Source of the DNA: Lacunisphaera limnophila
GTDB taxonomy: Bacteria > Verrucomicrobiota > Verrucomicrobiia > Opitutales > Opitutaceae
Assembly (NCBI RefSeq): GCF_001746835.1
Contig: NZ_CP016094.1
Span: 372,001 to 436,000, forward strand
DNA length: 64,000 nt
Reading direction: 5' to 3'
Part shown: positions 24,228 to 46,939 of the stretch, piece after piece
Numbering within the stretch: position 1 is the stretch's first letter
Layout of the letters: every line of letters starts with the position of its first letter
Notes under the pieces: generated by a model
Database searches by the model: none
What the model saw: the letters and a program-made list of their open reading frames with translations, nothing else
What the model was told of the DNA's origin: nothing
Position numbers and translations under genes: made by a program

Positions 24228-26543
24228 TTACTTGGCACTTGTGACTTGGGCGCCCGTCGCCTGCCACTTCTTGCCCAGCGACTGCAGGTAGGCGGTGAGG
24301 GCGACGATTTCCTTGTTGGGCTCGGTGAAGCGGCCCTGGTCGCGCAGTTCTTGCGTGATCTGCTTGGCCTGCGCCTTGGCGAGGGCGTCAATCTCGGCGG
24401 GGGACCAGTTGGGGAACGGGACGCCCAGCATGCGCTGCACGCGGATCTTGGACGGGAGCGCGGCGTAATCGGTCTCCTGCTCATGCAGCCAGGTGTAGGC
24501 CGGCATGTTCGAGCCCGTCGAGATGGCGCGCGGGTCGCGCATGTGGTCGTAGTGCCAGGCGTGGTTGTATTTGCCGCCGACGCGCGCGAGGTCGGGACCG
24601 GCGCGGCGGGAGCCCCACTGGTACGGGTGATCCCAGATGGACTCGCCGAGGCGGGAGTAGTCGCCGTAGCGCATGACGTCCGGCACCAGGGTGCGGATCA
24701 TCTGGGAGTGGCAGGTGTAGCAGCCCTCGCGGACGAAGAGGTCGCGGCCGGCGAGCTCAAGCGGGGTGTAGACGGCGGCGACCCGGTCCTCGGTCTGGAG
24801 CCGGCGCTCGATGGTGAGCATCGGGATGATCTGGATCAGGCCGCCCACGGCGACCGCCAGGAAGGTGAGGACGGTGAACGGCAGGGCGTTCAGCAGGAGC
24901 TTGTCGTACCACTCGCCCCAGGACTTGCCGCGGCTCTGGAAATGGCCGATGGCGAGGAGCACGCAGAAGGCGGTGGCGACCAGGCCGAGGATGTTGAGCC
25001 AGCCGGTGGTGAACATCCAGATGAAGGCGGCCAGACAGCCCAGGGTGCTGAAGATGACCGGGGCGTTGAAGATCGTGGCGCCGGCGCTGAGCGTCTCCTC
25101 GGGGGTGTGCTTCTCGACGTAGACTTCCATCGAGCCGTTGACCACCTGGGCGCCGCGGATGGACCGGAAGATGTTGTAGGCCATGATCAGGAAGCCCGTA
25201 AGGTACGCGCCGCCGCCGACCACGCGCAGCAGCATCAGGAAGCGGATCGAGTTCAGCGTCTCGAGGAAGTTGGGGTACTTCAGGATCGTGCCGCCCTCGG
25301 CCGTGGCGTTGAGCATGAGGCCCTGGGTGATACCCGAGGCCCACATGGCGCCCATGTAGAGCAGGATGCCGAACATCCCGAGCCAGAAGTGCAGGTTGGC
25401 CAGCGACTGCGAGTGCAGCGGCCGGTTCCAGAGGCGCGGCACGAGCCAGTAGAACATGCCGGCCGCCATGAAGCCGTTCCACCCGAGCGCGCCGCCGTGG
25501 ACGTGGCCGATGATCCAGTCGGAATAATGCGCGAGGGCGTTGACCGACTTGATCGAGAGGAGCGGCCCCTCGAAGGTGGCCATGCCGTAGAAGGTGACGC
25601 CGGCGGCGAAGAACTTGATGACCGGGTCGGTGCGGAGCTTGCCCCACGCGCCGCGCAGGGTGAGCAGACCGTTCAGCATGCCGCCCCAGGAGGGCGCCCA
25701 GAGCATGAGTGAGAAGGTCATGCCGAGGAGCTGGAGCCAGTTGGGCAGCGCGGTGTTGAGGAGATGGTGGGGGCCGGCCCAGATGTAGAGGAAGACCAGC
25801 GACCAGAAGTGGATGACCGAGAGCCGGTACGAGTACACCGGCCGTTCCGCCGCCTTCGGCAGGAAGTAATACATGATGCCCAGGATCGGCGTGGTCAGGA
25901 AGAAGGCCACGGCGTTGTGCCCGTACCACCACTGGACCAGGCCGTCCTGCACGCCGCCGAAGACCGGGTAGCTGTGCACCCACGAGGTCGGGATCGACAG
26001 GTGGTTGACGATGTAGAGCATCGCCACGGTGATGATCGTCGCGATGTAGAACCAGATGGCGACGTAGAGGGACTTCTCGTGGCGCTTCGCCAGGGTCCAG
26101 AAGAAGTTGACCGCAAAGACGACCCAGATGAGCGCGACCGCGATGTTGATGGGCCAGATGAGCTCCGCGTATTCCTTGCCGCGGGTGAGGCCGAGCGGGA
26201 GGGTGATTGCGGCCGAGACGATGATCAGCTGCCAGCCCCAGAAGTGGAGGTTCGACAGGAAGTCGCTAGCGAGGCGGGCCTTCACCAGGCGCTGCGTCGA
26301 GTAGTAAACGCCGGCGAACATCATGTTGCCGACGAAGGCGAAGATCACCGCGTTGGTGTGCAGCGGGCGGAGGCGGCCGAAGCTCAGCCACTGCTGGCCG
26401 AAGTTCACCTGCCAGAAATTGAGCTGGGTCGCGATGAGCACGCCGACCAGCATGCCGACGGCCCCCCAGATGACCGAGGCGAGCAGGAACTGCCGCACGA
26501 TCTTGTCGTTGAATTCAATGATGGTTTTTTGTCCGGTCGTCAT
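24228..26543 (-). CDS. ccoNO: Fused cbb3 oxidase subunits I and II (CcoNO)
   Basis: One protein of 771 residues. Residues 1 to about 490 are CcoN: low-spin heme His in RPLHTNAV, helix VI WYGHNAVAFFLTTPILG with the CuB His and the TTP/Y region, AGPHHLLNTALP with the His-His CuB ligands, and HVHGGALGWNG near the end. After a transition region the rest is CcoO, a membrane-anchored monoheme cytochrome with REGCYTCHSQMIR. The catalytic parts look intact, so this should be a working high-affinity O2 reductase. Fusion of the two subunits occurs in several phyla. The start is the ATG at 26543; upstream codons of the open frame overlap the ccoS end. Confidence 0.95.
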   Translation of the reverse strand: MTTGQKTIIEFNDKIVRQFLLASVIWGAVGMLVGVLIATQLNFWQVNFGQQWLSFGRLRPLHTNAVIFAFVGNMMFAGVYYSTQRLVKARLASDFLSNLHFWGWQLIIVSAAITLPLGLTRGKEYAELIWPINIAVALIWVVFAVNFFWTLAKRHEKSLYVAIWFYIATIITVAMLYIVNHLSIPTSWVHSYPVFGGVQDGLVQWWYGHNAVAFFLTTPILGIMYYFLPKAAERPVYSYRLSVIHFWSLVFLYIWAGPHHLLNTALPNWLQLLGMTFSLMLWAPSWGGMLNGLLTLRGAWGKLRTDPVIKFFAAGVTFYGMATFEGPLLSIKSVNALAHYSDWIIGHVHGGALGWNGFMAAGMFYWLVPRLWNRPLHSQSLANLHFWLGMFGILLYMGAMWASGITQGLMLNATAEGGTILKYPNFLETLNSIRFLMLLRVVGGGAYLTGFLIMAYNIFRSIRGAQVVNGSMEVYVEKHTPEETLSAGATIFNAPVIFSTLGCLAAFIWMFTTGWLNILGLVATAFCVLLAIGHFQSRGKSWGEWYDKLLLNALPFTVLTFLAVAVGGLIQIIPMLTIERRLQTEDRVAAVYTPLELAGRDLFVREGCYTCHSQMIRTLVPDVMRYGDYSRLGESIWDHPYQWGSRRAGPDLARVGGKYNHAWHYDHMRDPRAISTGSNMPAYTWLHEQETDYAALPSKIRVQRMLGVPFPNWSPAEIDALAKAQAKQITQELRDQGRFTEPNKEIVALTAYLQSLGKKWQATGAQVTSAK

Positions 26544-26562
26544 GGGAGATTCGGGAGGGGGT

Positions 26563-26850
26563 TCAGAAATAGGCGGGTTCCTGGGCATCGAGGCGCTGCA
26601 GGCAGCCGCGGCAGGGGGGGCGGACGCCACGCCGGCAGCCGCAGCCGCCGGAGGCGTGGGCCGCGGGGGCGGGAGTGACGGGGGCGGTCGGGCGGGCGGG
26701 CACGATCAACGGCGTCTCATCGGCGAGCGGGAGCAGGGAATCCCGCTCGGGGCTGGTCAGGTGGCGGCGGCGCTGCTCGCGGGCAAAAAGCACCACGAAG
26801 GTGCCGGCCAGGAGCAGGCTGAAGAATATAGTGAGGGGGATGACAGACAT
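26563..26850 (-). CDS. ccoS: CcoS-like protein with cysteine-rich tail
   Basis: Protein of 95 residues with one N-terminal membrane helix (MSVIPLTIFFSLLLAGTFVV) and the short charged segment typical of CcoS, an assembly factor for the metal centres of cbb3 oxidase. Unusually, it continues for about 45 residues with a Pro/Ala-rich linker and a tail containing GCGCRRGVRPPCRGC, four Cys that could bind metal. It lies directly upstream of ccoNO on the same strand, with a 19-base gap. CcoS is usually nearer 50-60 residues. Confidence 0.75.
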   Translation of the reverse strand: MSVIPLTIFFSLLLAGTFVVLFAREQRRRHLTSPERDSLLPLADETPLIVPARPTAPVTPAPAAHASGGCGCRRGVRPPCRGCLQRLDAQEPAYF

Positions 26851-32716: not shown

Positions 32717-32742
32717 CATGGGCCGGTCGGAGACCGGCCCTA
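32717..32742. repeat. Short palindrome forming the nrfA stop
   Basis: GGGCCGGTC-GGA-GACCGGCCC followed by TAC. Read on the minus strand, the TAG of GTAGGGCC is the stop codon of nrfA, so the gene end is built from the element. It may serve as a hairpin after nrfA, but no T-run is seen. Confidence 0.6.
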
Positions 32743-34203
32743 CTTCAACGCCCCGGTGCCGGCGGCGGTGGCGGGCCTCGTGTCGCGGCCGACGGCGAGC
32801 TCGCCCTGGCGGGCATAGTCGATGGCCTCGGCGAGGATGCGCGCGGCCTCCTGCGGGGCGTGGAAACCCATGGAGTTCTCCGCGGAGATGAAGTCGAGGC
32901 GCCACTGCGCCTTGCGGTGCAGATCGCGCGCGGCCTTGAGCTGCTCATCGGTCGCGCCGGCCCGATTCGCGGCGGCGATGGCATCCAGCAGGCCGATGAC
33001 GGCGGTCTCGCCCCGGTTGAGGAGCGCGACGTTGCGGTCCTGCACCTGCAGGGCGCGGGACTTGATCTCCTGCTCGGGGATGCGGTGACAGACCTGGCAG
33101 GACTGGGCGATGTTGAGGAGCGGCGAGCGGACATGGTGGTTGCTGACCTTGATCGCGCCCTCGCGCACGTAGGGCATGTGACAGTCGGCGCAGGAGACGC
33201 CGCTGCGGGCGTGGATGCCCTGGCTCCACAGCTCGAACTCGGGATGCTGGGCCTTGAGGATCGGCGCGCCGCTCTCGGTGTTCTTGAAATCCACGTGCTT
33301 CACCTCGTCGTAATAGGCCTCGATCTGCTCGACCTTGAGGCCCTTGTCCCACGGGTAGGTGACGAGCTTGCCCTCGCCCTTGAAGTAATACTCGACGTGG
33401 CATTGGGCGCAGACCATCGAGCGCATCTCCTGGCGCGTGGCGTCGGTGTTGGGCTCGTAGCGGCCCTCGCGGCCGTCGCGGCGCCAGCGCTCGATGCTGG
33501 GCAGGTGGGGCGTCGGGTAGTCGGAGTTGGCCAGCGCGCGGATGCCGTTGAGGAAACCGGGGCGGTTGACGCGGAGGCTCATCGTGTCGGCGTCGTGGCA
33601 GTCCACGCAGGACACGGGATGGGCCACGAGCTTGGTCGCCTCGGTGTAGGGCATGGCACAGACGACCTCGAAACCCTTCTGGATCTGCTCCTCCCAATGC
33701 TCCTTGCCCGCGGGCACGCCGGCCTTGATGCCCTCGCTGATGTAGGCGTTGAGCGTCGAGGCGTGGCACTGGAGGCAGGCGCCGGGCTGCTTGAAGTTCT
33801 TCACGCGCTCGGTCTCGCGCTGGTCGAGCAGCATGTAGGCGTGGCCGCGCTCCTCGCGGTAATCCACCCCGAAGGCGTAGCCGGCGAACAGGCGGCGCCA
33901 CACCGGGTCCTCGTCGAGATGCTGGAAGGCTTCGCTGCCGCCGTGGTTCGTGCGCTCGGTGTCAACCGTGCGCTTGTAGCTGTCGTACTGGCGCGGGTAG
34001 TTCTTGCCCCAGACGGCGGGGTCCTCCGTCTGGTCGCTGACCTCGACGACGCGGAAGACGTCCTTGGTGGCCTCGGCCTTCCGGGTGACGACGTTCTGAT
34101 AGAGCATCAGGATCAGGAAGGCGGCGCCGGCCGAGGCGGCGAGGAGGACGACGTAGACCCAGGTGGCGAGGCCGCGCTGGCGGGAGGCGGGGGAGGTATT
34201 CAT
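32740..34203 (-). CDS. nrfA: Pentaheme cytochrome c nitrite reductase (ammonia-forming)
   Basis: Periplasmic enzyme of 487 residues, membrane-anchored or signal-cleaved at an N-terminal helix (about 13-36). It reduces nitrite to ammonium with six electrons. Heme sites: CLQCH (143-147), CVDCH (199-203), CAQCH (265-269), CADCH (338-342) and CQVCH (369-373). The first is the catalytic heme and carries CXXCH instead of the more usual CXXCK. Conserved surroundings are QCHVEYYF (active-site Tyr), LKAQHPEFE (active-site His) and AQWRLDF near the end. NrfH, its electron donor, is encoded upstream. Confidence 0.95.
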   Translation of the reverse strand: MNTSPASRQRGLATWVYVVLLAASAGAAFLILMLYQNVVTRKAEATKDVFRVVEVSDQTEDPAVWGKNYPRQYDSYKRTVDTERTNHGGSEAFQHLDEDPVWRRLFAGYAFGVDYREERGHAYMLLDQRETERVKNFKQPGACLQCHASTLNAYISEGIKAGVPAGKEHWEEQIQKGFEVVCAMPYTEATKLVAHPVSCVDCHDADTMSLRVNRPGFLNGIRALANSDYPTPHLPSIERWRRDGREGRYEPNTDATRQEMRSMVCAQCHVEYYFKGEGKLVTYPWDKGLKVEQIEAYYDEVKHVDFKNTESGAPILKAQHPEFELWSQGIHARSGVSCADCHMPYVREGAIKVSNHHVRSPLLNIAQSCQVCHRIPEQEIKSRALQVQDRNVALLNRGETAVIGLLDAIAAANRAGATDEQLKAARDLHRKAQWRLDFISAENSMGFHAPQEAARILAEAIDYARQGELAVGRDTRPATAAGTGALK

Positions 34204-34524: not shown

Positions 34525-35001
34525 TTACTTCAGCGGGCCGTGGCCGACCTCGCGGTGGCAGTGGAGGCAGTCGAGCATCTTCTGCGGGTCGCCCGGGTGG
34601 GTGTTGATGCCGTCCACGATCTGCTCGTGGCAGCCGACGCAGTTGGCCTGGAGCACGGCGACGTTGTGGCGGCGGATCATGATCGGCTCGTGAAAGTCCT
34701 GGAGCGTGAACCCCTTCGAGTGCCAGAAGCCGTTCTCCGCCTTGCTGAGGTATTTTGGGATGAAGCCGTGCGGGGTGTGGCAGTCGTTGCAGGTGGCGAC
34801 GGTGTGGTGCGGGCCCTTCAGCCAGCCGTCGAACTGCTCGCGCATGATGTGGCAGTTCACGCAGGCGGTCGGGTCGTTGGAGAAATACGACAGCCCGTGC
34901 GCGTAGGTGAACGTGTAGGTGCCGAGGCCCGCGAACAGCCCCAGCGTGGCCGTGATGGCCAGCAGGAAGAGCGTGCGGGAGCGGGGCGTGGGCAACGTCA
35001 T
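34525..35001 (-). CDS. nrfH: Tetraheme cytochrome c quinol dehydrogenase NrfH
   Basis: NapC/NrfH-type protein of 158 residues. One N-terminal helix (LFLLAITATLGLFAGLG) anchors it, followed by four heme motifs: CVNCH (47-51), CNDCH (71-75), CVGCH (121-125) and CLHCH (145-149). It oxidises membrane quinol and feeds NrfA. The ATG at 35001 gives the standard short cytoplasmic tail. It lies 321 bases upstream of nrfA, an unusually wide gap filled by a repeat, and 85 bases downstream of a DUF2249 gene that has an FNR-type site. Confidence 0.95.
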   Translation of the reverse strand: MTLPTPRSRTLFLLAITATLGLFAGLGTYTFTYAHGLSYFSNDPTACVNCHIMREQFDGWLKGPHHTVATCNDCHTPHGFIPKYLSKAENGFWHSKGFTLQDFHEPIMIRRHNVAVLQANCVGCHEQIVDGINTHPGDPQKMLDCLHCHREVGHGPLK

Positions 35002-35086
35002 GGGACGCGGGGGTGCCGGGCAGCCTGACGCGGCGCCGGTCGCCGCCAAGCCTGCAGATCGGCCGTTGCCGTTATGTCACGCATCG

Positions 35087-35411: not shown

Positions 35412-35885
35412 TCAAGGCTCGAGTCGGTATCCCGTGGCGGAATCGAACGACAGCACCACCAGCTTTCCCTCCACGGCGAGGACTTCCCCGGTCCATTCCT
35501 GGCGGGGCGCGCCCGGGGCCGCGCCGCGCGCCACGCTGACGGCGATACGATGCCCCCCGGGGGCCAGCGGCACGCGCCATTCGCCCACGGAGGCCCCGTC
35601 GGACTTCACGCCTTTGGGCCGGTAAACCTGCTGCTGGACGAGACCGTCCACGTCCACGCTGACGACCACCACCGTGCGCCCGCGACCGGCGGGCGCGGTG
35701 GCCCGCATGTGGACCGGCCGGTCATCCTGCTCCGGGGCGGCTCCGCCCTGTTCCACCCGGCCGCCCAGGGCCCGGAAGGTAAAGATGAATTCCGCCCCCG
35801 CCGGGGCCGGATTGCGAAAAGGGGCGTCGCTTGCCGCCAGCAACGCGGCCAGCGCCACCGCCGTCAGGACGGTCGCCGCCAGCAC
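35412..35885 (-). CDS. Exported or anchored protein of unknown function, last gene of the NOR-like operon
   Basis: Protein of 157 residues starting at a GTG (35885) that overlaps the preceding gene by 22 bases. An N-terminal hydrophobic helix (LAATVLTAVALAALLAA) is followed by a beta-rich domain with no Cys or His cluster (EFIFTFRALGGRVEQ; TVVVVSVDVDG; GEWRVPLAPGGHRIAVSVA). It probably lies on the periplasmic face. Overlap with the cytochrome b/Fe-S gene suggests translational coupling and a shared complex. I do not recognise the family. Confidence 0.7.
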   Translation of the reverse strand: MLAATVLTAVALAALLAASDAPFRNPAPAGAEFIFTFRALGGRVEQGGAAPEQDDRPVHMRATAPAGRGRTVVVVSVDVDGLVQQQVYRPKGVKSDGASVGEWRVPLAPGGHRIAVSVARGAAPGAPRQEWTGEVLAVEGKLVVLSFDSATGYRLEP

Positions 35886-37531
35886 CGCCCGGAGCCGGCC
35901 CCCGCCTGAACCGGCGCGACCGGTTGGCGTTCGCGCAGGCGTTGCGCGGCCGTCGTGAGCAGGTGCGACCGCAGCGGGTCAAAATTGACGTGGGCGGTCC
36001 TGCGCGGATCGGCGCGGTTGGGCCGGAAGGCCGGTTCGCGCGTACCGTCGAGGCGGGCGGGCATCCAGCGGTTGCCCTCGCGGGCGAAGGCCTCGGCCGA
36101 CCCGCAGCCCACGATCAGGACCGCCGCCGCCCCCTTGCTGATGAGGCGCTCCAGCAGCTTGGGTTCGACCCAGCCCGAGCACGGGACGGGGCGCACCGCA
36201 TAGCCCGGCAGGCGCCGGGCCCACGCCACGTGGTCAAACAACTCCCAGCCGCCGCCGGTCTGCGCGCAAACGAGCGCGAGCGCCGGCGGCGTACCGCGCT
36301 CCACGCCCGCGACCACGAGCCCCTCCAGTTCCCTCGCCACCTGCTGGGCGTCAAACCACGCCAGGCCGATGCCCTGTGTGTCGCAGGAACCCGCACAGAT
36401 GCCGCAGCCCACGCAGCGGTCGGGATCGACCTGCGCCTGGGAGGGAAACGGCTTGCCGTCGGTGCGGGGCACCATGGTGATCGCGCCGAAGGGGCAATCG
36501 TGCGAGCAGAGCGTGCAGGCAAAACACCGGGAGACATTGACCGTGGCCTGGAAGACCGCGCGCGGCCGGCGCCGGGCCAGCCACGCCGGCACCGTGAGCA
36601 GCCCGGCCGCCGCCAGCGCGGTCGCCAGCCACAGCCCCCCGCCGGAGAGGCGCGCGGTGATCGCGAGCGGCCAGAGATACCACCAGTCCATGGTCAGCGC
36701 CACGGGCTTCACCGCCATCTGCGCCACCGGGGCGTTGGCCGCGGGATAGACCGCCGCGGCGAGCAGCACCGCGCCCGCGAGCCAGGCAATGAGCCGCCAG
36801 TCCGGCAGCCACTGCGCCCGGCTCAGGCGCGCCACATGCAGCACCAGCCCCGCCGCGACCCCCAGCGGCAGCGCCATGTGCAGGAAGAAGACGACGAAGA
36901 ACAACAGCGATGGCACCGTCCGGTCCGAGGTGAACAGACGCTGCAGCGGCTCGCCGAAGACCGGCAGCACGTCGAGGACCTTCATCGTGTCCAGCGCCAG
37001 CAACTGGGCCCGCTGGTCCCAGACCAGCCAGTAGCCCGTCCAGCCGATGAACCAGACCAGGGCGATCAGCCCCAGACCGCTCACCCACGCAAGCCAGCGC
37101 GCGTCGGCGAACTTCCGCGCCAGCAGCGCACGCCCCGCATGCGCCAGCACCAGCAACATCGTGAGGTCCGAGGAGTAGCGGTGCACACTGCGCACGATGC
37201 CGCCAAGGGAACGCGGCCCGAGGTCGGCCAACGAGTGCCAGGCCGACTGCACGCTCGCCGAATACCAGACCAGCATCAGCACCCCGGAGAGCGTGGCCAG
37301 CAGCAGCATGACGTTGGCCGCGGGCCCGAGGTGGGCCAGCGGGTTCACTTCCCGCGGCAGCCATCGCTCAAGCAGCGTGTCGGTCCTCGTCAGCAACCCG
37401 TCACCCGCGGCGAGCACGCGGGCGCCGCGCACGGGCGGCGGTGGCGGCGAGGAACCCGGTGGTTGCGGCGAAGTCCCCACCGCATCGGCCAGGGCCTCGC
37501 AGTCCGGCTCAGGATGCGCGTGCCTGCTCAT
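35864..37531 (-). CDS. Cytochrome b / double 4Fe-4S ferredoxin / MvhD-like fusion
   Basis: Protein of 555 residues with three parts. (1) About 60-315: cytochrome b6-like membrane domain with two H-x13-H pairs (His 117/131 and 218/232) that would hold two hemes b. (2) About 330-390: two 4Fe-4S motifs, CFACTLCSHDCP and CVGCGICAGSC. (3) About 415-515: a domain resembling the MvhD/FrhD hydrogenase iron-sulfur subunit, with Cys in LVCAQT, VPCSGW and VGCGSAE. This architecture joins quinone-type and ferredoxin-type electron transfer. It sits downstream of the SCO gene in the NOR-like operon. Direction of electron flow and partner are unknown. Confidence 0.85.
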   Translation of the reverse strand: MSRHAHPEPDCEALADAVGTSPQPPGSSPPPPPVRGARVLAAGDGLLTRTDTLLERWLPREVNPLAHLGPAANVMLLLATLSGVLMLVWYSASVQSAWHSLADLGPRSLGGIVRSVHRYSSDLTMLLVLAHAGRALLARKFADARWLAWVSGLGLIALVWFIGWTGYWLVWDQRAQLLALDTMKVLDVLPVFGEPLQRLFTSDRTVPSLLFFVVFFLHMALPLGVAAGLVLHVARLSRAQWLPDWRLIAWLAGAVLLAAAVYPAANAPVAQMAVKPVALTMDWWYLWPLAITARLSGGGLWLATALAAAGLLTVPAWLARRRPRAVFQATVNVSRCFACTLCSHDCPFGAITMVPRTDGKPFPSQAQVDPDRCVGCGICAGSCDTQGIGLAWFDAQQVARELEGLVVAGVERGTPPALALVCAQTGGGWELFDHVAWARRLPGYAVRPVPCSGWVEPKLLERLISKGAAAVLIVGCGSAEAFAREGNRWMPARLDGTREPAFRPNRADPRRTAHVNFDPLRSHLLTTAAQRLRERQPVAPVQAGAGSGRCWRRPS

Positions 37532-37618: not shown

Positions 37619-38620
37619 TTATTGGGCAGGAATGGGGGCATGGGATTCAAGCAGGAGTTGCCGCAGGCCGGCGCGGAGCCACGCCCGGTGGCGCGGATCC
37701 AGCGTGAAGCGGTAGGCGATCCGGCCGGAGCGGTCGACGAGCAGGAACAGGTTGGCGTGGTCGAGTACCCCGGTCTCGGGATTGCGGGTGACGGAGAACT
37801 GGAGCCGCTTCAACACGTCGCGCATCCCGGCGGGATCACGGCCGTTGACGTAGCGGAACTCCGGGTAGGTGAAGCCGCGGCCCTCCGCCATCGCGGCCAT
37901 GATCTCGGTGGTCTCGTATTCCGGGTTCAGCGAGAGGGCGACGACGCGCAGGTCCGCGCGCTCGGCGGCAGTGAACTCAGTCAGCAGGGCCTGGACTTCC
38001 TTGAATATCTCCGGGCAAGTCGTGGAGCAGGCGGCATAGACGCCGGTGACCAGCACCACCTGCCCGCGCAGGTCAGCCAGGCGGAAGTCCATGCCGCGCT
38101 GGTCGAGCAGCGGCGCATCGGGCACGGCGAGGTTCACGCGGATGCGGGCGCCGGGGAACGGGGGCAGTTCCTGGGCGCGGGCCGCATCGAGCCGGGCGTA
38201 ATAGACCAGCCCGGCCACGCAGATGGCGATCACACCAAACCCGGCCGCGGCGGCTCGGGTATGCGCGAGCCAGAGCCGCGGATCGCGGAGCGGCACGATG
38301 ACCTGGCGCCACAGCACCACCGCCGCACCGACAATGAAGCAGGGCTCCAACATCATCACCGACACGGCCAGCCACGAGATGCCGCCGGTGCGCGGGTCGC
38401 CCCGGTAACACCAGAGTTGGAAGTCGCGCACAAAATCCCCCAGCAAGCCGCCCTCGGTCGGCCCGAAGATCGTCAGCAGCAGGAACCCCTCGTAGGCCGC
38501 CAGTGCCGTGAACAGGAACACCAGCAGGCCCGGCCCGGTGAGAAACCGCTCGCCGGGCGAGTCAACGTGGGCCGGCGCCGGGATGATGGCCGGCCCGGGT
38601 GCGTGGGTGGGGGTGAGCAT
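37619..38620 (-). CDS. SCO1/SenC-family protein with N-terminal membrane helices
   Basis: Protein of 333 residues. Three membrane helices (about 30-55, 80-105 and 123-145) precede a thioredoxin-fold SCO domain carrying the copper motif YAACSTTCPEIF and a downstream His in LDHANLFLL. SCO proteins insert copper into the CuA site of subunit II, and the CuA protein is encoded three kilobases upstream in the same operon. Most SCO proteins have only one anchor helix, so the extra helices are notable. A palindromic repeat (38636-38715) precedes it. Confidence 0.9.
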   Translation of the reverse strand: MLTPTHAPGPAIIPAPAHVDSPGERFLTGPGLLVFLFTALAAYEGFLLLTIFGPTEGGLLGDFVRDFQLWCYRGDPRTGGISWLAVSVMMLEPCFIVGAAVVLWRQVIVPLRDPRLWLAHTRAAAAGFGVIAICVAGLVYYARLDAARAQELPPFPGARIRVNLAVPDAPLLDQRGMDFRLADLRGQVVLVTGVYAACSTTCPEIFKEVQALLTEFTAAERADLRVVALSLNPEYETTEIMAAMAEGRGFTYPEFRYVNGRDPAGMRDVLKRLQFSVTRNPETGVLDHANLFLLVDRSGRIAYRFTLDPRHRAWLRAGLRQLLLESHAPIPAQ

Positions 38621-38725: not shown

Positions 38726-40444
38726 TCAGCGCACCGGCCAGACGTCGGCCAGGGCCTTCCAGTTCGCGAAGTAATACACCGCGAAGCAGGCGAGGAAGAG
38801 GATGGTCAGGACGATGGTGCCCTTGGTGGCGTAATGGTCCTGGGCCAGCGAACCGGCCGCACTGCCCGCCAAGGCCGGCGGCGTGCCCCAGTCCGACATG
38901 GCTGTGCCCGCGCCGATCTTCCGGCCGAAGAACAGCGTGCCCACGCAGAGCAGCACGAAGGTGAGCAGGCCGAGGAAGGCGAGCACACCGCCGATGCCAA
39001 GCACGCCGAGCCAGAGATGCGCGGCGGGGCCGTAGATACCCTGCGCGTCGATATCCCAGCTGCGCCGCGAGACGCCCATGGAACCGGCAAACGACATGCC
39101 AAAGGACATCAGCGTGATGCCGAGACCGAACAGCCACGGCTGCCAGCGGGCGACCCCGCGCAGGATGAAATCGCGCTGGAAGATCAGCGGGATCACGTAG
39201 TAGGCCAGGCCCATGAAGGCCAGCGAGGTGCCGCCGACCACCGTGACATGAAAATGCCCGGGGATGCGCAGCGTGTTGTGCGCGATGATGTTGATCTGCT
39301 GCGTGCCGAGCGTGACCCCCGTGATGCCGCCGAGGAAACCGAAGATGATGACCGACAGGACGGTGGCGGAAAGCGCGGGATTTTTCCACGGGAGGGCGGT
39401 GACCCAGCCGAAGATGCCGCGCGTGTAGCCCTTCTCGCGCATGGCGATCTCGATGCCGGCCGGCACGGTGAAGCCGTGGATCATCGAGGCCAGCACGGCG
39501 AGATACATGGCGTAGGACGTGTTCCAAATCTTCCACGTGGCCCCGACGCCCGGGTCGACCAGCAGATGGTGGGCCGAGGCGAGGTTGATGAAGAGGATGT
39601 AGAGCACGAAGGCGGTGCGGCACACAGCCTCGTTGACCGGGCGTGCGCCCAGGATGACGTGCGAGAGCAGATACCACACGCTCACCATCGCGCAGACATT
39701 GACCTGCTGCGACTGGTGGCCGAGGCCCCACCAGATGAGGCGATACCAGGCCGGGTCGGGCTGGGGCGTCCAACCCATCGAATAGGTGAAGGTCGGGATC
39801 ATCACGATGGCGCCATGGAGCAGCGTGACGACGGCGATGATGGCCGCGGCGGTGGCGCCAAAGGTGACGATCGGCACCGAGCCGGTATAGGCCTGGTCCC
39901 GCTTGGCCACGTAGAGCGTGGCAAAGAAGTTGAACACGCCGATGAGCGTGCCCACCGCGACGAGGATGATGCCGAGGTAGAACAGCGGGTGCGCCAGCAA
40001 CGGCAGGTAGGAGGTCATCATCACGTCGGCCTGCCCCGCGAGGATGATGTAGTCCACCATCACGCCGCCGGTGAGCATCATGCCGAACGAGACCCACGCG
40101 ACCTTCCTGGAAAAGAGCCGGGCGTTGAGCGGCGTGGTGCAGGCGAAGTAGAGGATGGCGACCTCGAAAAAGAGGATCCACAGGATCAGCATGTTGATGC
40201 CGTGGAAGGTGAGGATGCGGTAGAACCAGTCCGCCGGCAGAAGGTGCACGGTCTGCCAGCGGGTGAGGGCCAGCAGGAGCGCGGCGATGCCGCCGAGCAG
40301 GAGGAAGACGATGCCGACGACGGCATTGAGCTTGATGAAGCGCTGGGCGTCGAGGCAGACGCTCAGGCCGGTCGTGCCGCAGACGCGGCCGGGGACGCCG
40401 GGCGCGGTGAGCGCGTGGGAGGAGGAAGCAGGGGCGGTGGTCAT
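38726..40444 (-). CDS. Heme-copper oxidase superfamily subunit I, probable non-canonical NO reductase
   Basis: Membrane protein of 572 residues with about 13 helices. Heme and CuB ligands are present: His81 (LTFHGINML), His243 (WGLGHQSQQVN), His292-His293 (SAHHLLVD), His397 and His399 (PGHFHVTV). The residue four after the CuB His, which is the cross-linked Tyr in O2 reductases and Glu in cNOR, is Gln247 here, and the P-E-V-Y motif is absent. That argues against O2 reduction. With a CuA subunit II and a SenC/SCO gene adjacent, and nirK nearby, the set resembles the norS-norY-senC arrangement known for sNOR-type NO reductases. Assignment to sNOR, eNOR or a related class is tentative. Confidence 0.85.
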   Translation of the reverse strand: MTTAPASSSHALTAPGVPGRVCGTTGLSVCLDAQRFIKLNAVVGIVFLLLGGIAALLLALTRWQTVHLLPADWFYRILTFHGINMLILWILFFEVAILYFACTTPLNARLFSRKVAWVSFGMMLTGGVMVDYIILAGQADVMMTSYLPLLAHPLFYLGIILVAVGTLIGVFNFFATLYVAKRDQAYTGSVPIVTFGATAAAIIAVVTLLHGAIVMIPTFTYSMGWTPQPDPAWYRLIWWGLGHQSQQVNVCAMVSVWYLLSHVILGARPVNEAVCRTAFVLYILFINLASAHHLLVDPGVGATWKIWNTSYAMYLAVLASMIHGFTVPAGIEIAMREKGYTRGIFGWVTALPWKNPALSATVLSVIIFGFLGGITGVTLGTQQINIIAHNTLRIPGHFHVTVVGGTSLAFMGLAYYVIPLIFQRDFILRGVARWQPWLFGLGITLMSFGMSFAGSMGVSRRSWDIDAQGIYGPAAHLWLGVLGIGGVLAFLGLLTFVLLCVGTLFFGRKIGAGTAMSDWGTPPALAGSAAGSLAQDHYATKGTIVLTILFLACFAVYYFANWKALADVWPVR

Positions 40445-40457
40445 GGCGGGGAGACGG

Positions 40458-41012
40458 TTACTCGACGAAGATTTTCCCGGTCATGGCATGGTGGCCGATG
40501 CCGCAGAATTCGTTGCAGACGATGGTGAACTCGCCCTTGGACGTCGGCGTGATGGTCAGCACGTGGTCGTAGCCGGGGAGAACCTGGAAGTTCATGTTGA
40601 GCGGCTGGAGCGAAAAGCCGTGCTGGAGGTCGAGCGCGGAGAGGTGCAGCCGGTAGGTCTCGCCCACGCGCAGGCGGAGGGCGGGCCACCACTGCCACAT
40701 CCGGCCGGTGATGTAGGCGTCGCCGCCCGGGGGCGGCTCGGCGATGGGCAGCTCCGGCACGAGCGCGTTGGCCTCGACGGTGTTCCTGAACGTGCCGACG
40801 CGGTTGGCCTCGACGAACTTCTCCGTGCGGGCGAGGAAGTCGGCGGGCGTCACGGCATAGGCCTCGCCGGTGCTGTTCTGTTTGCCGCGGAAATGCCAGT
40901 AGGGCATCATCAGCGACATCACGAAGCACCAGAGAAGGGCAAGGCCGAGCCAAAGCTTCTCGTGGCCGGCCGGGGCATGGAACCAAGGGGTGGTAAGGGG
41001 ACGCAGGCTCAT
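40458..41012 (-). CDS. CuA-containing subunit II of the heme-copper enzyme
   Basis: Protein of 184 residues with one N-terminal helix (LWLGLALLWCFVMSLM) and a C-terminal cupredoxin domain. The CuA ligands are complete: His in LDLQHGFSL and C-NEF-C-GIG-H-HAM in the motif VCNEFCGIGHHAM. It would accept electrons from a periplasmic donor such as azurin or a cytochrome c and pass them to subunit I, encoded 13 bases downstream. The spacing suggests one transcript with the genes at 41028 and 41182. Confidence 0.92.
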   Translation of the reverse strand: MSLRPLTTPWFHAPAGHEKLWLGLALLWCFVMSLMMPYWHFRGKQNSTGEAYAVTPADFLARTEKFVEANRVGTFRNTVEANALVPELPIAEPPPGGDAYITGRMWQWWPALRLRVGETYRLHLSALDLQHGFSLQPLNMNFQVLPGYDHVLTITPTSKGEFTIVCNEFCGIGHHAMTGKIFVE

Positions 41013-41027
41013 AAAGGGGGACTCCGG

Positions 41028-41177
41028 TCAGGGCAGCAGCGCCGGTTTGGTGAGCATCAGTTCGATCCAGCCCCACGCGGTGTAGGACAGGAAGGGGATG
41101 AGGACGCCGAGCACGAGCAGCAGCCACGGGTTGTCGAGGAGCCGCTGCCACGGATGGATCTTGGGTTCGTTGTTCAT
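41028..41177 (-). CDS. Small single-TM subunit of the NOR-like operon
   Basis: Forty-nine codons from ATG at 41177 to TGA at 41028. The sequence starts MNNEPKIHPWQRLLDN and has one membrane helix (PWLLLVLGVLIPFLSYTAWG). It sits between the subunit I-like and CuA genes with gaps of 4 and 15 bases, which supports translation. Small one-helix subunits are common in heme-copper oxidases, so a structural role is likely, but no family is recognised. Confidence 0.72.
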   Translation of the reverse strand: MNNEPKIHPWQRLLDNPWLLLVLGVLIPFLSYTAWGWIELMLTKPALLP

Positions 41178-42821: not shown

Positions 42822-43313
42822 TCATGGGCGGACGATGAGCTTGCCCTTCATCAACGCGGCGTGGCCGGGGAACGTGCAGAGGAAGGGATACTCGCCGGGT
42901 TGGGCAGGCACCGTGAATTCGATGGTATCGCTCTCGCCGCCGCCGAGGATCCGGGTGTGCGCCAACACGGCGGACTTATCGTCGGGGAGATAGTCGGGCA
43001 TCCTCGCGGCGGCGGAAGCGGCGAAGGCGAGCACGGCCGCGTCGTCGCGGGGCGTGAGCAGGACCCAATTGTGCCCCATCGCCTGTTTGGGCATCCGGCC
43101 CAGGTTGGTGAGGGCGACGCGCAGCTTCTCGCCGGGCTGGGCGCGGATTTCCGTCAGGTTGAATTTCATCGTGTCATTCGCGGTGATCTCGATGGTCCGC
43201 ACCCCGTCGGCGGGGGCCGCGCTGGGAGCGGGGGCTTCGGACTTGCCGCAGCCGGTGAACAGGAGGGAGGCGCCGGCGACGAGCGCCAGCAGAATTCGGG
43301 TTGGGTGGTTCAT
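42822..43313 (-). CDS. Azurin-like blue copper lipoprotein
   Basis: Cupredoxin of 163 residues. A lipoprotein signal peptide ends in LLFTGC (Cys22), so it is probably lipid-anchored. Type 1 copper ligands are visible: His in MGHNWVLL, then Cys, His and Met in FLCTFPGHAALM. Azurins shuttle electrons to NirK and to NO reductases in denitrifiers. A TTGACGCGGGTCAA operator 36 bases upstream of its ATG, overlapping the stop of the next gene, fits co-expression with nirK and the NOR-like operon. Confidence 0.93.
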   Translation of the reverse strand: MNHPTRILLALVAGASLLFTGCGKSEAPAPSAAPADGVRTIEITANDTMKFNLTEIRAQPGEKLRVALTNLGRMPKQAMGHNWVLLTPRDDAAVLAFAASAAARMPDYLPDDKSAVLAHTRILGGGESDTIEFTVPAQPGEYPFLCTFPGHAALMKGKLIVRP

Positions 43314-43799: not shown

Positions 43800-44522
43800 T
43801 CAGCGGGCGGCGGCCAGGGCCCGCACCGTCTCGTCGAGCCCGCCCTGCAGGCCGGTGCGCTGGTGCACGACCTCGCCGGCGGGATTGAGGATCGTGATGA
43901 GATTCGAGTGGGCGAACATGCCGTCGGCCTCCTGCCGGTACTTCACGCCCAGCAGCGCGGCGAGTTCCCGGACCGCGCCGTCGTCGCCGTGCAGGAGCGT
44001 CCACGAGGCGTCGAGCTGGCGCTGGCCGCGGTAGAGGGCGAGCGCGGCCGGGGTGTCGCGCACGGTGTCGAAGGACACGAGCACGAACGCCGCCCGGTCC
44101 CGGATCGCCGCGGGGAGCTTCGCCCGGATGGCCTGCATGTCCGTGAGCAAAAGCGGGCACGCGTAGCCGCAGGAGGCGAAGAACATCGTGAGCACGACGG
44201 GCCGCCCGCGCAGCGCGCCGAGGGCGAACGGCTGGCCGCGGTCGTCGGTGAAGGTGGCGTCGAGCTGGTAGAGGGAGGCGGGGGAGAAATTTTGGATTTG
44301 TGAGTCTCGATTTTCGATTTCTGTCACTGAGCAGCACGCGTCTTTCTTCTCGGGTTCGGTCGGACAACACGCGGCCGATTTGGGTGCGGGCTCGGCGGCG
44401 CAGCAGGCGGCGGGTTTGTCTTCTTGTAGGAGCGTGCTGGCACGCGACGGGCTCAAGGCATCGCCTGCAAGCAGGCTCCTACAAATGGCCAGGGCCAGGC
44501 AGAGGGTGATTTTCGTTTTCAT
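43800..44522 (-). CDS. SCO1/SenC-family copper protein with Cys-rich linker
   Basis: Protein of 240 residues. The SCO domain (about 80-240) carries MFFASCGYACPLLLTD, the copper CxxxC motif, and the later His in MFAHSNLITIL. Before it is a linker with ACCAAEP, ACCPTEP and ACCSVTE, three Cys pairs that may bind copper. The N-terminal signal peptide is partly encoded by a palindromic repeat (44425-44483). It overlaps the nirV-like gene by ATGA (44519-44522), so translation is coupled. Likely role: copper delivery or redox support for NirK or CuA. Confidence 0.88.
   Translation of the reverse strand: MKTKITLCLALAICRSLLAGDALSPSRASTLLQEDKPAACCAAEPAPKSAACCPTEPEKKDACCSVTEIENRDSQIQNFSPASLYQLDATFTDDRGQPFALGALRGRPVVLTMFFASCGYACPLLLTDMQAIRAKLPAAIRDRAAFVLVSFDTVRDTPAALALYRGQRQLDASWTLLHGDDGAVRELAALLGVKYRQEADGMFAHSNLITILNPAGEVVHQRTGLQGGLDETVRALAAAR
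44425..44483. repeat. GTAGGAGC-type palindromic repeat inside the sco signal-peptide region
   Basis: TGTAGGAGCGTGCTGGCACG at one end and GCCTGCAAGCAGGCTCCTACA at the other. Read on the minus strand it supplies residues about 14-33 of the SCO protein (CRSLLAGDALSPSRASTLLQ) without breaking the frame. Confidence 0.85.
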
Positions 44523-45313
44523 GGGAGGGATGACGCGCAGCGGAAGCCGAGCGAGGTCGTGGTATTGTTGGCCTGGAGGGAGGAGCGCAGGGCCGAGCGC
44601 ATGAAGGCGGCGTAGTCGCTGGTGTCCTTCGCCCCGGCGGCGCCGGCGCCGCAGAAGAGGTCGCGCTCGAGGCCGGTGTCGGCGCGCGATTCCCCGGTGA
44701 CCATGGCGGTGTTGAAGTCGTCCACCCACTCCCACACGAGGCCGTGCAGGCCGCGCACGCCGTGCAGCGTGGCCCGGGCGGTGGCGACGGACGGCAGGAT
44801 GTCCGGCACGGGCCGGGCGAGCCAGGCGTAGAGGTCGCGGTTGAAGGCGGGTTCGTTTTTCCCCGCGGGCGTGGTGTAACCGGCCGCCGCCGCGAGTTCC
44901 CACTCGGCGGTGGTGGGCAGGCGCTTGCCGGCCCAGCGGGCGTAGGCGCGCGCGGCGAACCACGAGACCCGCACCACCGGGGCATCGGCCGGCGCCCGCG
45001 CGCCGGGCTCGAGGTCACCCGCCCAGTGCCCGAGGTAGGAGGCGTCGGCGAAGAGCGGGCTCACGGCGGAGCGGCGCCACTTCGGGACGGCGGTGACGAA
45101 GGCGAGGAAGTCGGCGTTGGTCACGGGCCGCTCGTCGAGCCGGAAGGCCGCCACGGGCACCGACTCCGGATCCTGGGTGGAACGTTGCACGGGCACGTAG
45201 GCTCCCGTCGGGATGGACTGCATCCCGACGGAAGCATCTACGGCTTCACACCTACCCGCCACCGCGCTGGCGAGCGCCAGGGCAATCCGTAAGCTGCGGG
45301 TGATGGAATTCAT
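44519..45313 (-). CDS. nirV: Formylglycine-generating enzyme-like protein, NirV type
   Basis: Protein of 264 residues with an N-terminal signal peptide and a SUMF1/FGE-sulfatase domain: FRLDERPVTNADFLAFV, WFAARAYARWAGKRLPTTAEWELAA split over 100-140, GLVWEWVDDF and a C-terminal GFRC. Genes of this type (nirV) are often found beside copper nitrite reductase genes; their exact function is unsettled. nirK is upstream across a repeat, and the downstream sco gene starts in its stop codon. Residues about 25-40 are encoded by a hairpin-like stretch (45197-45241). Confidence 0.85.
   Translation of the reverse strand: MNSITRSLRIALALASAVAGRCEAVDASVGMQSIPTGAYVPVQRSTQDPESVPVAAFRLDERPVTNADFLAFVTAVPKWRRSAVSPLFADASYLGHWAGDLEPGARAPADAPVVRVSWFAARAYARWAGKRLPTTAEWELAAAAGYTTPAGKNEPAFNRDLYAWLARPVPDILPSVATARATLHGVRGLHGLVWEWVDDFNTAMVTGESRADTGLERDLFCGAGAAGAKDTSDYAAFMRSALRSSLQANNTTTSLGFRCASSLP
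45197..45241. repeat. Hairpin-forming element in the nirV signal-peptide region
   Basis: GCTCCCGTCGGGATG and CATCCCGACGGAAGC form a 15-base stem with one mismatch around GACTG, bordered by GTAG and CTAC. The borders match the TGTAG...CTACA repeat families, suggesting an in-frame insertion. Confidence 0.6.
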
Positions 45314-45439: not shown

Positions 45440-46939
45440 TTAATGCGCCTCGTTCTTCACGCGGCGGACGTCGTCCACGGTGTAGGGCTCGCCGGCGTTG
45501 CCCCAGCTGTTGGTGACGAAGGTGAGGACATCGGCGACCTGCTCGTCGGTGAGCGGCTGCGGCGGCATGGCGCTGTTGTAGGCCACGCCGTTGACGGTGA
45601 CCGGCCCGGTGAGGCCCTTGAGCACGATGCGGATCGCGCGGTCGCGGTCGGCCTTGAGGAAGTCGGAACCGGCGAGCGGCGGGAAGACGTTGGCCATGCC
45701 CTTGCCGTCGGGCAGATGGCAGGCGAAGCAGCTCGCCATGTAGGTCTGCTTGCCGCGCTCGAACTGCACCTCCTTGGTGAGGCCGGCAATGGCGGGGTTG
45801 GCGCGCATCTCGGCGGCGATCTTTTCCTTGAGCTCGGCCTCGCGCTTGGAGGAATCGGTGCCGGCCTCGGCCTGCGAGCCGAAGTAGACGGCGTCGATCT
45901 CCTTGCCGGAGTAGATGACGCGGTCCTCGGGCCCGGAGGCCTTGAGCATGCCGAGGGCGCCCTTGTTGAAGGCGCGGCTCAGCGAGTGGTCCACGAGCAC
46001 GTAGGTGCCGGGCACATCCAGCTTGAACTCGACGATGGCGGCGCCGCCGGACGGGATCATCGTGGTCTGCACGTGCTCCTGCACGTATCTCATGCCGCCC
46101 TCGGGCCAGACCTTGTCGAAGATCTCGCCGATGACGTGGAAGGACGACGTGAGGTTGGGGCCGCCGACGCCGAAGTAGATGCGCACGCGCTCGCCGACCG
46201 CGGCGGCGAGGGCCTTGTCGCCGACGAGGGAGCCGACGGCGCCGTTGAACAGGACGTAGGTCGGGTGCTCGTCGATGGACTTGGCCATGTCGAAGTTCTG
46301 CAGGCCGGGGGCGCCGAAGGTACCCTGGGTGTAGAACTCGCCCTGCATCACGTAGAATTCCTTGTCCACCGGCGGCAGGCCGTCCTTCGGCTCGACGAGG
46401 ATCAGGCCGTACATGCCGTTGCCGATGTGCATGGGCACGGGGGCGGTGGCGCAGTGATAGACGTAGAGGCCGGGGTTGAGGGCCTTGAAGGTGAATTTCG
46501 AGCCGTGGCCGGGCGCGGTGAACGTGGACGCCGCGCCGCCGCCGGGCCCGGTCACGGCGTGCAGGTCGATGTTGTGCGGAAGTTTCGAGGAGGGGTGGTT
46601 GTTCAGCGTGAACTCGACGATGTCGCCCTCGCGGATGCGGATGAACGAGCCGGGCACGCTGCCGCCGTAGGTCCAGAAGGTGTACTCGGCGCCGTCGGCG
46701 ATCTTCATGACCACCTCGCGCACCTCGAGGTTCACCACGACGCGGGCGTTGTGCTTGCGCGCGATCGGCGGCGGCACGTGCGGCGGGGAGGTGAGGATGG
46801 CCTGCTCGACGGGCAGGGCCTGGACGGCGGCCGGGAGGACGACCGGGCCCTGGACGCCGGTGGGGCCCTCGGAGGCAAAAGCGGAGGCGGTCAGGGTCAG
46901 ACCAAGGAGGGCGGCGGGTAACACGTGGATTTTTTTCAT
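45440..46939 (-). CDS. nirK: Copper nitrite reductase with C-terminal cytochrome c domain
   Basis: Exported enzyme of 499 residues (signal peptide about 1-22) that reduces nitrite to NO. Two cupredoxin domains hold type 1 copper (His in [10 protein letters not shown]; Cys, Met and His in [18 protein letters not shown]) and type 2 copper (NIDLHAV; second-domain His in [10 protein letters not shown]). Residues about 385-495 form a cytochrome c domain with CFACH at 404-408 and a likely Met ligand in SAMPPQ. The fused heme domain gives a built-in electron entry. A perfect FNR-type site is 51 bases upstream. Confidence 0.95.

Follow-up and report, generated by a model that had tools for sequence, protein, structure and literature searches.

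The nitric oxide reductases (NORs) related to heme-copper oxidases (HCOs) form several families. In ammonia oxidisers the sNOR operon has the order norSY-senC-orf1, and Murali et al. are said to have characterised the eNOR of Rhodothermus marinus in PNAS in 2024 and to have shown its reduction of NO. The families differ at the position of the cross-linked Tyr of O2-reducing oxidases, which according to Table A4 of PMC8756737 holds Asn in sNOR and in bNOR/CuANor, Gln in eNOR, Asp in gNOR and Glu in cNOR and qNOR; the same table lists eNOR with one conserved proton channel, and the available text of PMC11388526 reports a biochemical characterisation. The occurrence of eNOR in Opitutales is already in print, because the available text of PMC13274419 describes an isolate of this order, Verruconatronum alginivorum, which carries NirK, an eNor homologue and NrfAH and grows by reduction of nitrite to N2O. 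Here we describe a locus of Lacunisphaera limnophila (Opitutaceae) in a stretch of 64,000 nucleotides (NZ_CP016094.1, positions 372,001 to 436,000), hereafter the window. Judging from their residues, two of its genes (subunits I and II, Table 1) very probably encode an eNOR-type NOR, with conversion of NO to N2O as the predicted reaction. The core enzyme is a further member of the known eNOR family, of an uncommon but not a new kind; the part worth following is a conserved pseudo-oxidase beside it, a subunit I paralogue that has lost the CuB His pair.

The relatives compared below are the best 80 of 226 matches in one scan of genome contigs, and subunits I and II were aligned for the window and 82 relatives (loci L036-L118 except L109, whose reading frame is broken), i.e., 83 sequences. 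The active site was mapped by a HMMER alignment of subunit I (residues 67-499) to the ba3 oxidase of Thermus thermophilus (2qpd), for which we take residue numbers to be the chain number minus 6. H243 aligns with the CuB ligand H233 and Gln247 with the cross-linked Tyr237, in a helix VI that reads G242-H-Q-S-Q-Q247-V-N249. All six His ligands are in place (H81, H243, H292, H293, H397, H399). Five of them as well as Q246, Q247 and N249 are each found in 83/83 sequences, as are Y258, S320, H323, R460 and R461, and the G-H-x-x-Q-Q-x-N motif is without exception in the window and its 82 relatives. H399 is present in 82/83 including the window. The CuA ligands of subunit II (H131, C166, C170, H174, M177) are likewise invariant (83/83). 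These alignments bear out the sequence-only reading of this locus, which had noted the six His, the Gln in place of the Tyr and the complete CuA site. Conservation of this extent in both subunits is far beyond chance. The single exception at H399 is a T. thermophilus plasmid copy (L117), in which helix X has H-F-K for H-F-H, i.e., a Lys for the second low-spin heme His; its GHxxQQxN motif and its helix VII pair are intact.

The enzyme shares with ba3 oxidase the B-family fold, the six His and part of the K-channel residues: Y258, S320, H323 and E18 of subunit II are found in 83/83, while the counterparts of Thr312 and Tyr244 differ (His323 and Val254), as does that of Tyr237 (Gln247). When the paralogue is left out of the subunit I tree, the 31 eNOR rows, among them the window and the R. 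marinus homologue, form a clade (support 98/96) apart from ten B-family and one A-family oxidase rows, so that the clustering with O2 reductases of either family considered by the sequence-only reading is not observed. Gln occupies the Tyr position in 31/31 eNOR rows, against Tyr in 7/7 oxidase rows and also in L241, L242 and L243; L240 is a long-branch outlier adjoining the eNOR clade. The ba3-type fold, the ba3 oxidases as nearest solved structures and the retained CuA and K-channel-like residues might speak for a ba3-type O2 reductase whose helix VI Tyr was lost by drift or is replaced by a Tyr from elsewhere. We regard this as very unlikely, given the Gln in 83/83 sequences and in all five copies of the R. 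marinus group examined, the separate clade, the low dN/dS (ratio of nonsynonymous to synonymous substitution rates) of subunit I in 11 operon pairs (0.01-0.17) and the presence of nirK in the neighbourhood. The helix VII position of the cbb3 Tyr, presumably the His pair minus 6, is Ile286 in 82/83, which rules out a C-family-type Tyr; the check for a Tyr from another helix was limited to this position. An ordinary O2-reducing B-family oxidase is rejected for the lack of a cross-linkable helix VI Tyr together with the separate clade.

Among the NORs, cNOR and qNOR are excluded, as Glu and no CuA subunit would be expected instead of Gln and CuA, and bNOR/CuANor is excluded by its Asn against Gln in 83/83. 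The sNOR needs more attention, since its gene types (CuA subunit, subunit I, SCO) match those found here. The norS-norY-senC gene content seen earlier is therefore real as to gene types but does not single out sNOR, for which Table A4 of PMC8756737 gives Asn where the window and its relatives have Gln. An sNOR is thus highly improbable, and the earlier choice of "sNOR, eNOR or related" narrows to eNOR by the Gln and the clade shared with R. marinus. As the trees contain no sNOR, gNOR, bNOR or nNOR references, these families are judged by residue only; no sNOR reference was recognised among the plasmid records, of which L241, L242 and L243 have the Tyr and L239 is a fragment.

A search of 244 Rhodothermia genomes separates subunit I matches into three tiers, with 19 genomes of the window type at 895-1011 bits, 11 of the R. 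marinus group at 574-629 bits and oxidase-like matches at 212-286 bits; four matches below 110 bits are the paralogue and not subunit I. The genome of R. marinus DSM 4252, assigned by a second contig that is 100% identical to pRMAR01 over the 3000 bases compared, falls in the middle tier. Its subunit I carries GHGSQQIN, and a CuA subunit and a small open reading frame (ORF) precede it, in the same order of small ORF, subunit II and subunit I as in the window.

Several observations weigh against the eNOR assignment or the route proposed for it. The R. marinus subunit I is just 42.8% identical to that of the window (558 columns) and belongs to a different subclade, and the 16 kb around it yielded no recognisable paralogue, SCO or cytochrome b/Fe-S gene. 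The AlphaFold2 (AF2) model of subunit I has a modest pLDDT of 80. The exclusion of sNOR depends on one residue position, and the flanks of 32/44 relatives have no nirK match above 150 bits. Finally, the eNorB of V. alginivorum is called quinol-dependent in the available text of PMC13274419, unlike the CuA route assumed here.

Following established HCO logic, a periplasmic copper protein or cytochrome c would hand electrons to CuA, from which they would pass via the low-spin heme to the high-spin heme/CuB site, where two NO would be reduced to N2O. The azurin encoded nearby is a plausible donor to CuA, NirK, encoded upstream, would supply the NO, and protons would be drawn from the cytoplasm through a modified K channel. 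A site without the Tyr would not be expected to cleave O2 in the usual way, through a Tyr radical; the replacement by Gln argues against O2 cleavage.

The paralogue lies upstream of the CuA gene and was aligned for the window and 68 relatives (69 sequences; L088 was excluded as partial). H78, H224, H355 and H357 are conserved in 69/69. In the alignment to subunit I, H78 matches the low-spin heme His of helix II and H357 the other low-spin heme His, H355 matches the high-spin heme His, and H224 the CuB ligand on helix VI. Neither of the helix VII CuB positions is His in any of the 69, so that of the three His required for CuB the helix VI His alone is kept. All 20/20 aligned paralogue rows show Arg-Lys for Arg-Arg and Glu for the Arg at 235, and have other residues in place of Y258, S320, H323 and H389. 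Glu216 is found in 69/69; eNOR and B-family oxidase rows carry Arg there, with a single Lys. Gln246, by contrast with the Val of the oxidase rows, is retained in 18/20 paralogue rows, which hints at an eNOR-like origin. In the tree the paralogue forms one clade (100/100) on a long branch beside the eNOR subunit I clade (75/92), and both together are separated from the oxidases with 100/97. An origin within the operon-bearing clade, compared with an earlier one, is not rejected by the approximately unbiased test (p 0.447).

Despite these losses the paralogue resembles subunit I proteins of PF00115 in fold, in the His of low- and high-spin heme, in the helix VI His and in the Arg/Lys pair, and is unlike them in the missing CuB His pair, the replaced K-channel residues and Glu216. 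PF00115 is matched by 25/39 members at E<=0.01, the window copy scoring 23.6 bits against a cut-off of 34.8. Its AF2 model reaches a pLDDT of 90 and a pTM of 0.91; the first Foldseek hit by E-value is the Aquifex oxidase 7deg, and the highest TM-score listed (0.76) belongs to ba3 chains. With the His of both hemes (H78, H355, H357) in 69/69 and the predicted fold, the paralogue has the features expected of a heme-binding protein of the HCO fold. A profile built from four sequences found no match among PDB sequences at E<=1. No description of a paralogue without CuB was found in the titles and abstract openings searched; we make no claim that it is new to the literature, as the principal paper on eNOR (Murali et al. 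2024) lay outside that search. The account of V. alginivorum, in the available text of PMC13274419, names only eNorAB and no paralogue.

The dN/dS of the paralogue is 0.10-0.29 in 11/11 operon pairs, which speaks strongly against a pseudogene and indicates purifying selection, weaker than that on subunit I, whose values it exceeds 1.3 to about 16 times in the same pairs. This relaxation and the loss of catalytic residues could be read as the decay of a duplicate, an explanation to which we give scarcely any credence in view of the dN/dS values, the four His in 69/69 across several phyla and the intact ORF in the window. The paralogue can be seen as a natural experiment on what remains of a heme-copper enzyme that has lost its copper pair, its proton channel and its active-site residue.

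We give about even chances to the paralogue being an extra heme-carrying membrane subunit, derived from an eNOR-like subunit I and incapable of HCO catalysis, that would act as an electron relay or store, as an NO-binding subunit or as a dimer partner. A more specific version is put forward only tentatively: a heterodimer of active and pseudo-active eNOR subunits, in which the paralogue, a new kind of redox subunit, would store electrons on its two hemes alone or bind NO as a partner of eNOR, would be fed by the cytochrome b/Fe-S protein of the operon, and might take on a separate heme role after loss of eNOR. The position of the paralogue in the operon, upstream of the CuA gene in 64/69 named loci with 2.6 kb upstream, is at odds with its being a free-standing heme sensor or NO-binding protein that travels with eNOR without being a subunit of it. 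That explanation is nevertheless the main rival because of three orphan copies without adjacent eNOR: L200 in genome G683, L232 in G688 and L233, the second copy of G695. The first two come from genomes without an eNOR match. The CuB pair, the K channel and the catalytic residue are missing, but all three orphans have the four His as well as Arg-Lys; the dN/dS between L232 and L233 is 0.116. On the other hand, the orphans nest in the Rhodothermia branch of the paralogue, inside the operon-borne clade, and because of this nesting their independence looks derived; their neighbourhoods differ between G683 and G688/G695, with no explanatory gene set common to the three. On balance we consider a free-standing role rather unlikely. 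A P-type ATPase lies within a few genes of both L232 and L233.

Evidence contrary to a subunit of eNOR comes from the distribution. The paralogue is absent from 5/69 loci with room for it (L081, L083, L085, L103, L105), and it occurs in two Rhodothermia genomes (G683, G688; completeness not stated) without an eNOR-tier match. It is for these reasons neither needed by every eNOR nor tied to eNOR. The loss of CuB may also be incomplete in some copies: at position 267, one helix turn before the lost pair, His is found in 30/69 and Gln in 23/69. The 30 copies with His have room for another ligand and may hold a residual metal site; the window, with Gln, is not among them.

The coordinates of both eNOR genes in the sequence-only reading are correct; the conserved unit is larger, from 42597 to about 35412, and includes the paralogue and a cytochrome b/Fe-S protein that were missed. 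SCO and cytochrome b/Fe-S genes follow subunit I in 65/65 named loci with 3.2 kb downstream, and all five genes were found in 60 loci, in identical order in 60/60.

Table 1. Features of the window at the eNOR locus and in its surroundings (positions within the window; aa, amino acids; TM, transmembrane)
Feature	Position	Strand	Evidence and remarks
NrfA-like ammonia-forming cytochrome c nitrite reductase	32740..34203	-	PRK11125 312.3 bits, under cut-off 595
NrfH	34525..35049	-	TIGR03153 162.3 bits, cut-off 134.2
Separate frame matching the C-terminal part of intact cytochrome b/Fe-S homologues	35412..35885	-	TM helix and further domain
Fusion of a cytochrome b6-like protein with two 4Fe-4S motifs and a FlpD-like stretch	35864..37531	-	frame change near 3' end
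SCO1/SenC-type protein, downstream of subunit I	37619..38620	-	several predicted TM helices; PF02630 48.2 bits; 65/65 loci
Predicted eNOR subunit I (catalytic), 572 aa	38726..40444	-	intact ORF; PF00115 220.5 bits; six His ligands, Gln247, GHxxQQxN
Predicted eNOR subunit II, 184-aa ORF	40458..41012	-	complete CuA site (CNEFCGIGHHAM, His131); one predicted N-terminal TM helix
Small single-TM ORF, 49 aa, perhaps subunit IIa-like	41028..41177	-	no Pfam match; phmmer matches in 54/80 named loci
Subunit I paralogue without CuB, 471 aa	41182..42597	-	keeps H78, H224, H355, H357, R417/K418; helix VII His pair, K-channel and active-site residues lost
Azurin, candidate electron donor	42822..43313	-	lipobox-like LFTGC; azurin model 103.6 bits, just below cut-off 105.1
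ORF without family match, 143 aa	43359..43790	-
Second SCO1/SenC-like protein	43800..44414	-	start uncertain; 57.4 bits
Formylglycine-generating-enzyme-like protein	44519..45313	-	PF03781 111.2 bits
NirK with C-terminal cytochrome c domain, likely NO source	45440..46939	-	TIGR02376 364.7 bits, cut-off 296.3

The cytochrome b/Fe-S protein, with four His and eight Cys invariant, may well be an electron partner on the quinone side, a role that we suggest as a guess. Its gene (37531-35412, minus strand) is split in the window by a frame change, which is either a real break or an assembly error; 63/72 homologues found match over at least 650 residues in one ORF. The 49-aa ORF may resemble subunit IIa of ba3 oxidase. 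The azurin may be lipid-anchored, because of the lipobox-like LFTGC near its start. We take the formylglycine-generating-enzyme-like protein to be NirV-like. NirK with a C-terminal cytochrome c domain is found in Verrucomicrobia among others, according to the available text of PMC4770552.

Among the 44 loci for which 5 kb are covered on either side, NirK-core matches above 150 bits occur in 12 (15 at any score) and NirV-like matches in 16; matches to the window azurin were found in 3/80 named loci, and a motif-based test for azurin identified 1/80.

The genome, a single contig of 4.2 Mb with a completeness of 99.99%, contains five PF00115 matches: an A-family oxidase (L001), a cbb3 oxidase (window 24228-26630), the eNOR, the paralogue and a CcoN-like protein (L004). 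By motif reading the eNOR is the sole NOR candidate among them, and none is a cNOR or qNOR. The best NCBIfam match of the eNOR is CtaD, far under its cut-off; such genes are easily mislabelled cytochrome oxidase, and the organism could therefore pass as lacking an NO reductase. With one NosZ model (TIGR04246), no NosZ was found in the genome, the matches being of only 33.8 and 23.6 bits, the first of them to eNOR subunit II. As nirK and eNOR are present and NosZ was not found by this model, the organism is a likely source of N2O. The earlier view of a verrucomicrobial denitrifier accordingly holds from nitrite to N2O and, by the same single model, not beyond. L004 (C1:2503828-2505069) is a degenerate oxidase-like protein without the helix VII His pair, again by motif reading.

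Record titles and tree labels place the relatives of the eNOR in Verrucomicrobiota, Myxococcota, Acidobacteriota, Spirochaetota (with Leptospiraceae), Bacteroidota and Rhodothermota; the closest named relatives among the matches listed are Opitutae/Opitutaceae metagenome-assembled genomes with about 91% identity. Subunit I occurs in 41/329 sampled genomes of the phylum of L107, which we take to be Myxococcota on account of the loci assigned to it. The paralogue was found in 7/387 sampled Verrucomicrobiota genomes, in 15/244 Rhodothermia genomes (16 copies above 450 bits) and, in the phylum of L090, in 1/297 above 600 bits, plus one weak match at 84 bits. One TAG or TGA within the subunit I match is reported for L102, L107 (G340, G332), G397, G620, G443, G578, G588 and G455. 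On a Defluviimonas plasmid the order is small ORF, CuA subunit, subunit I, cyoE, SCO and cytochrome b, the paralogue being absent, and a Thermus plasmid copy of eNOR is adjoined by genes for an Rrf2 regulator and a DUF542 protein.

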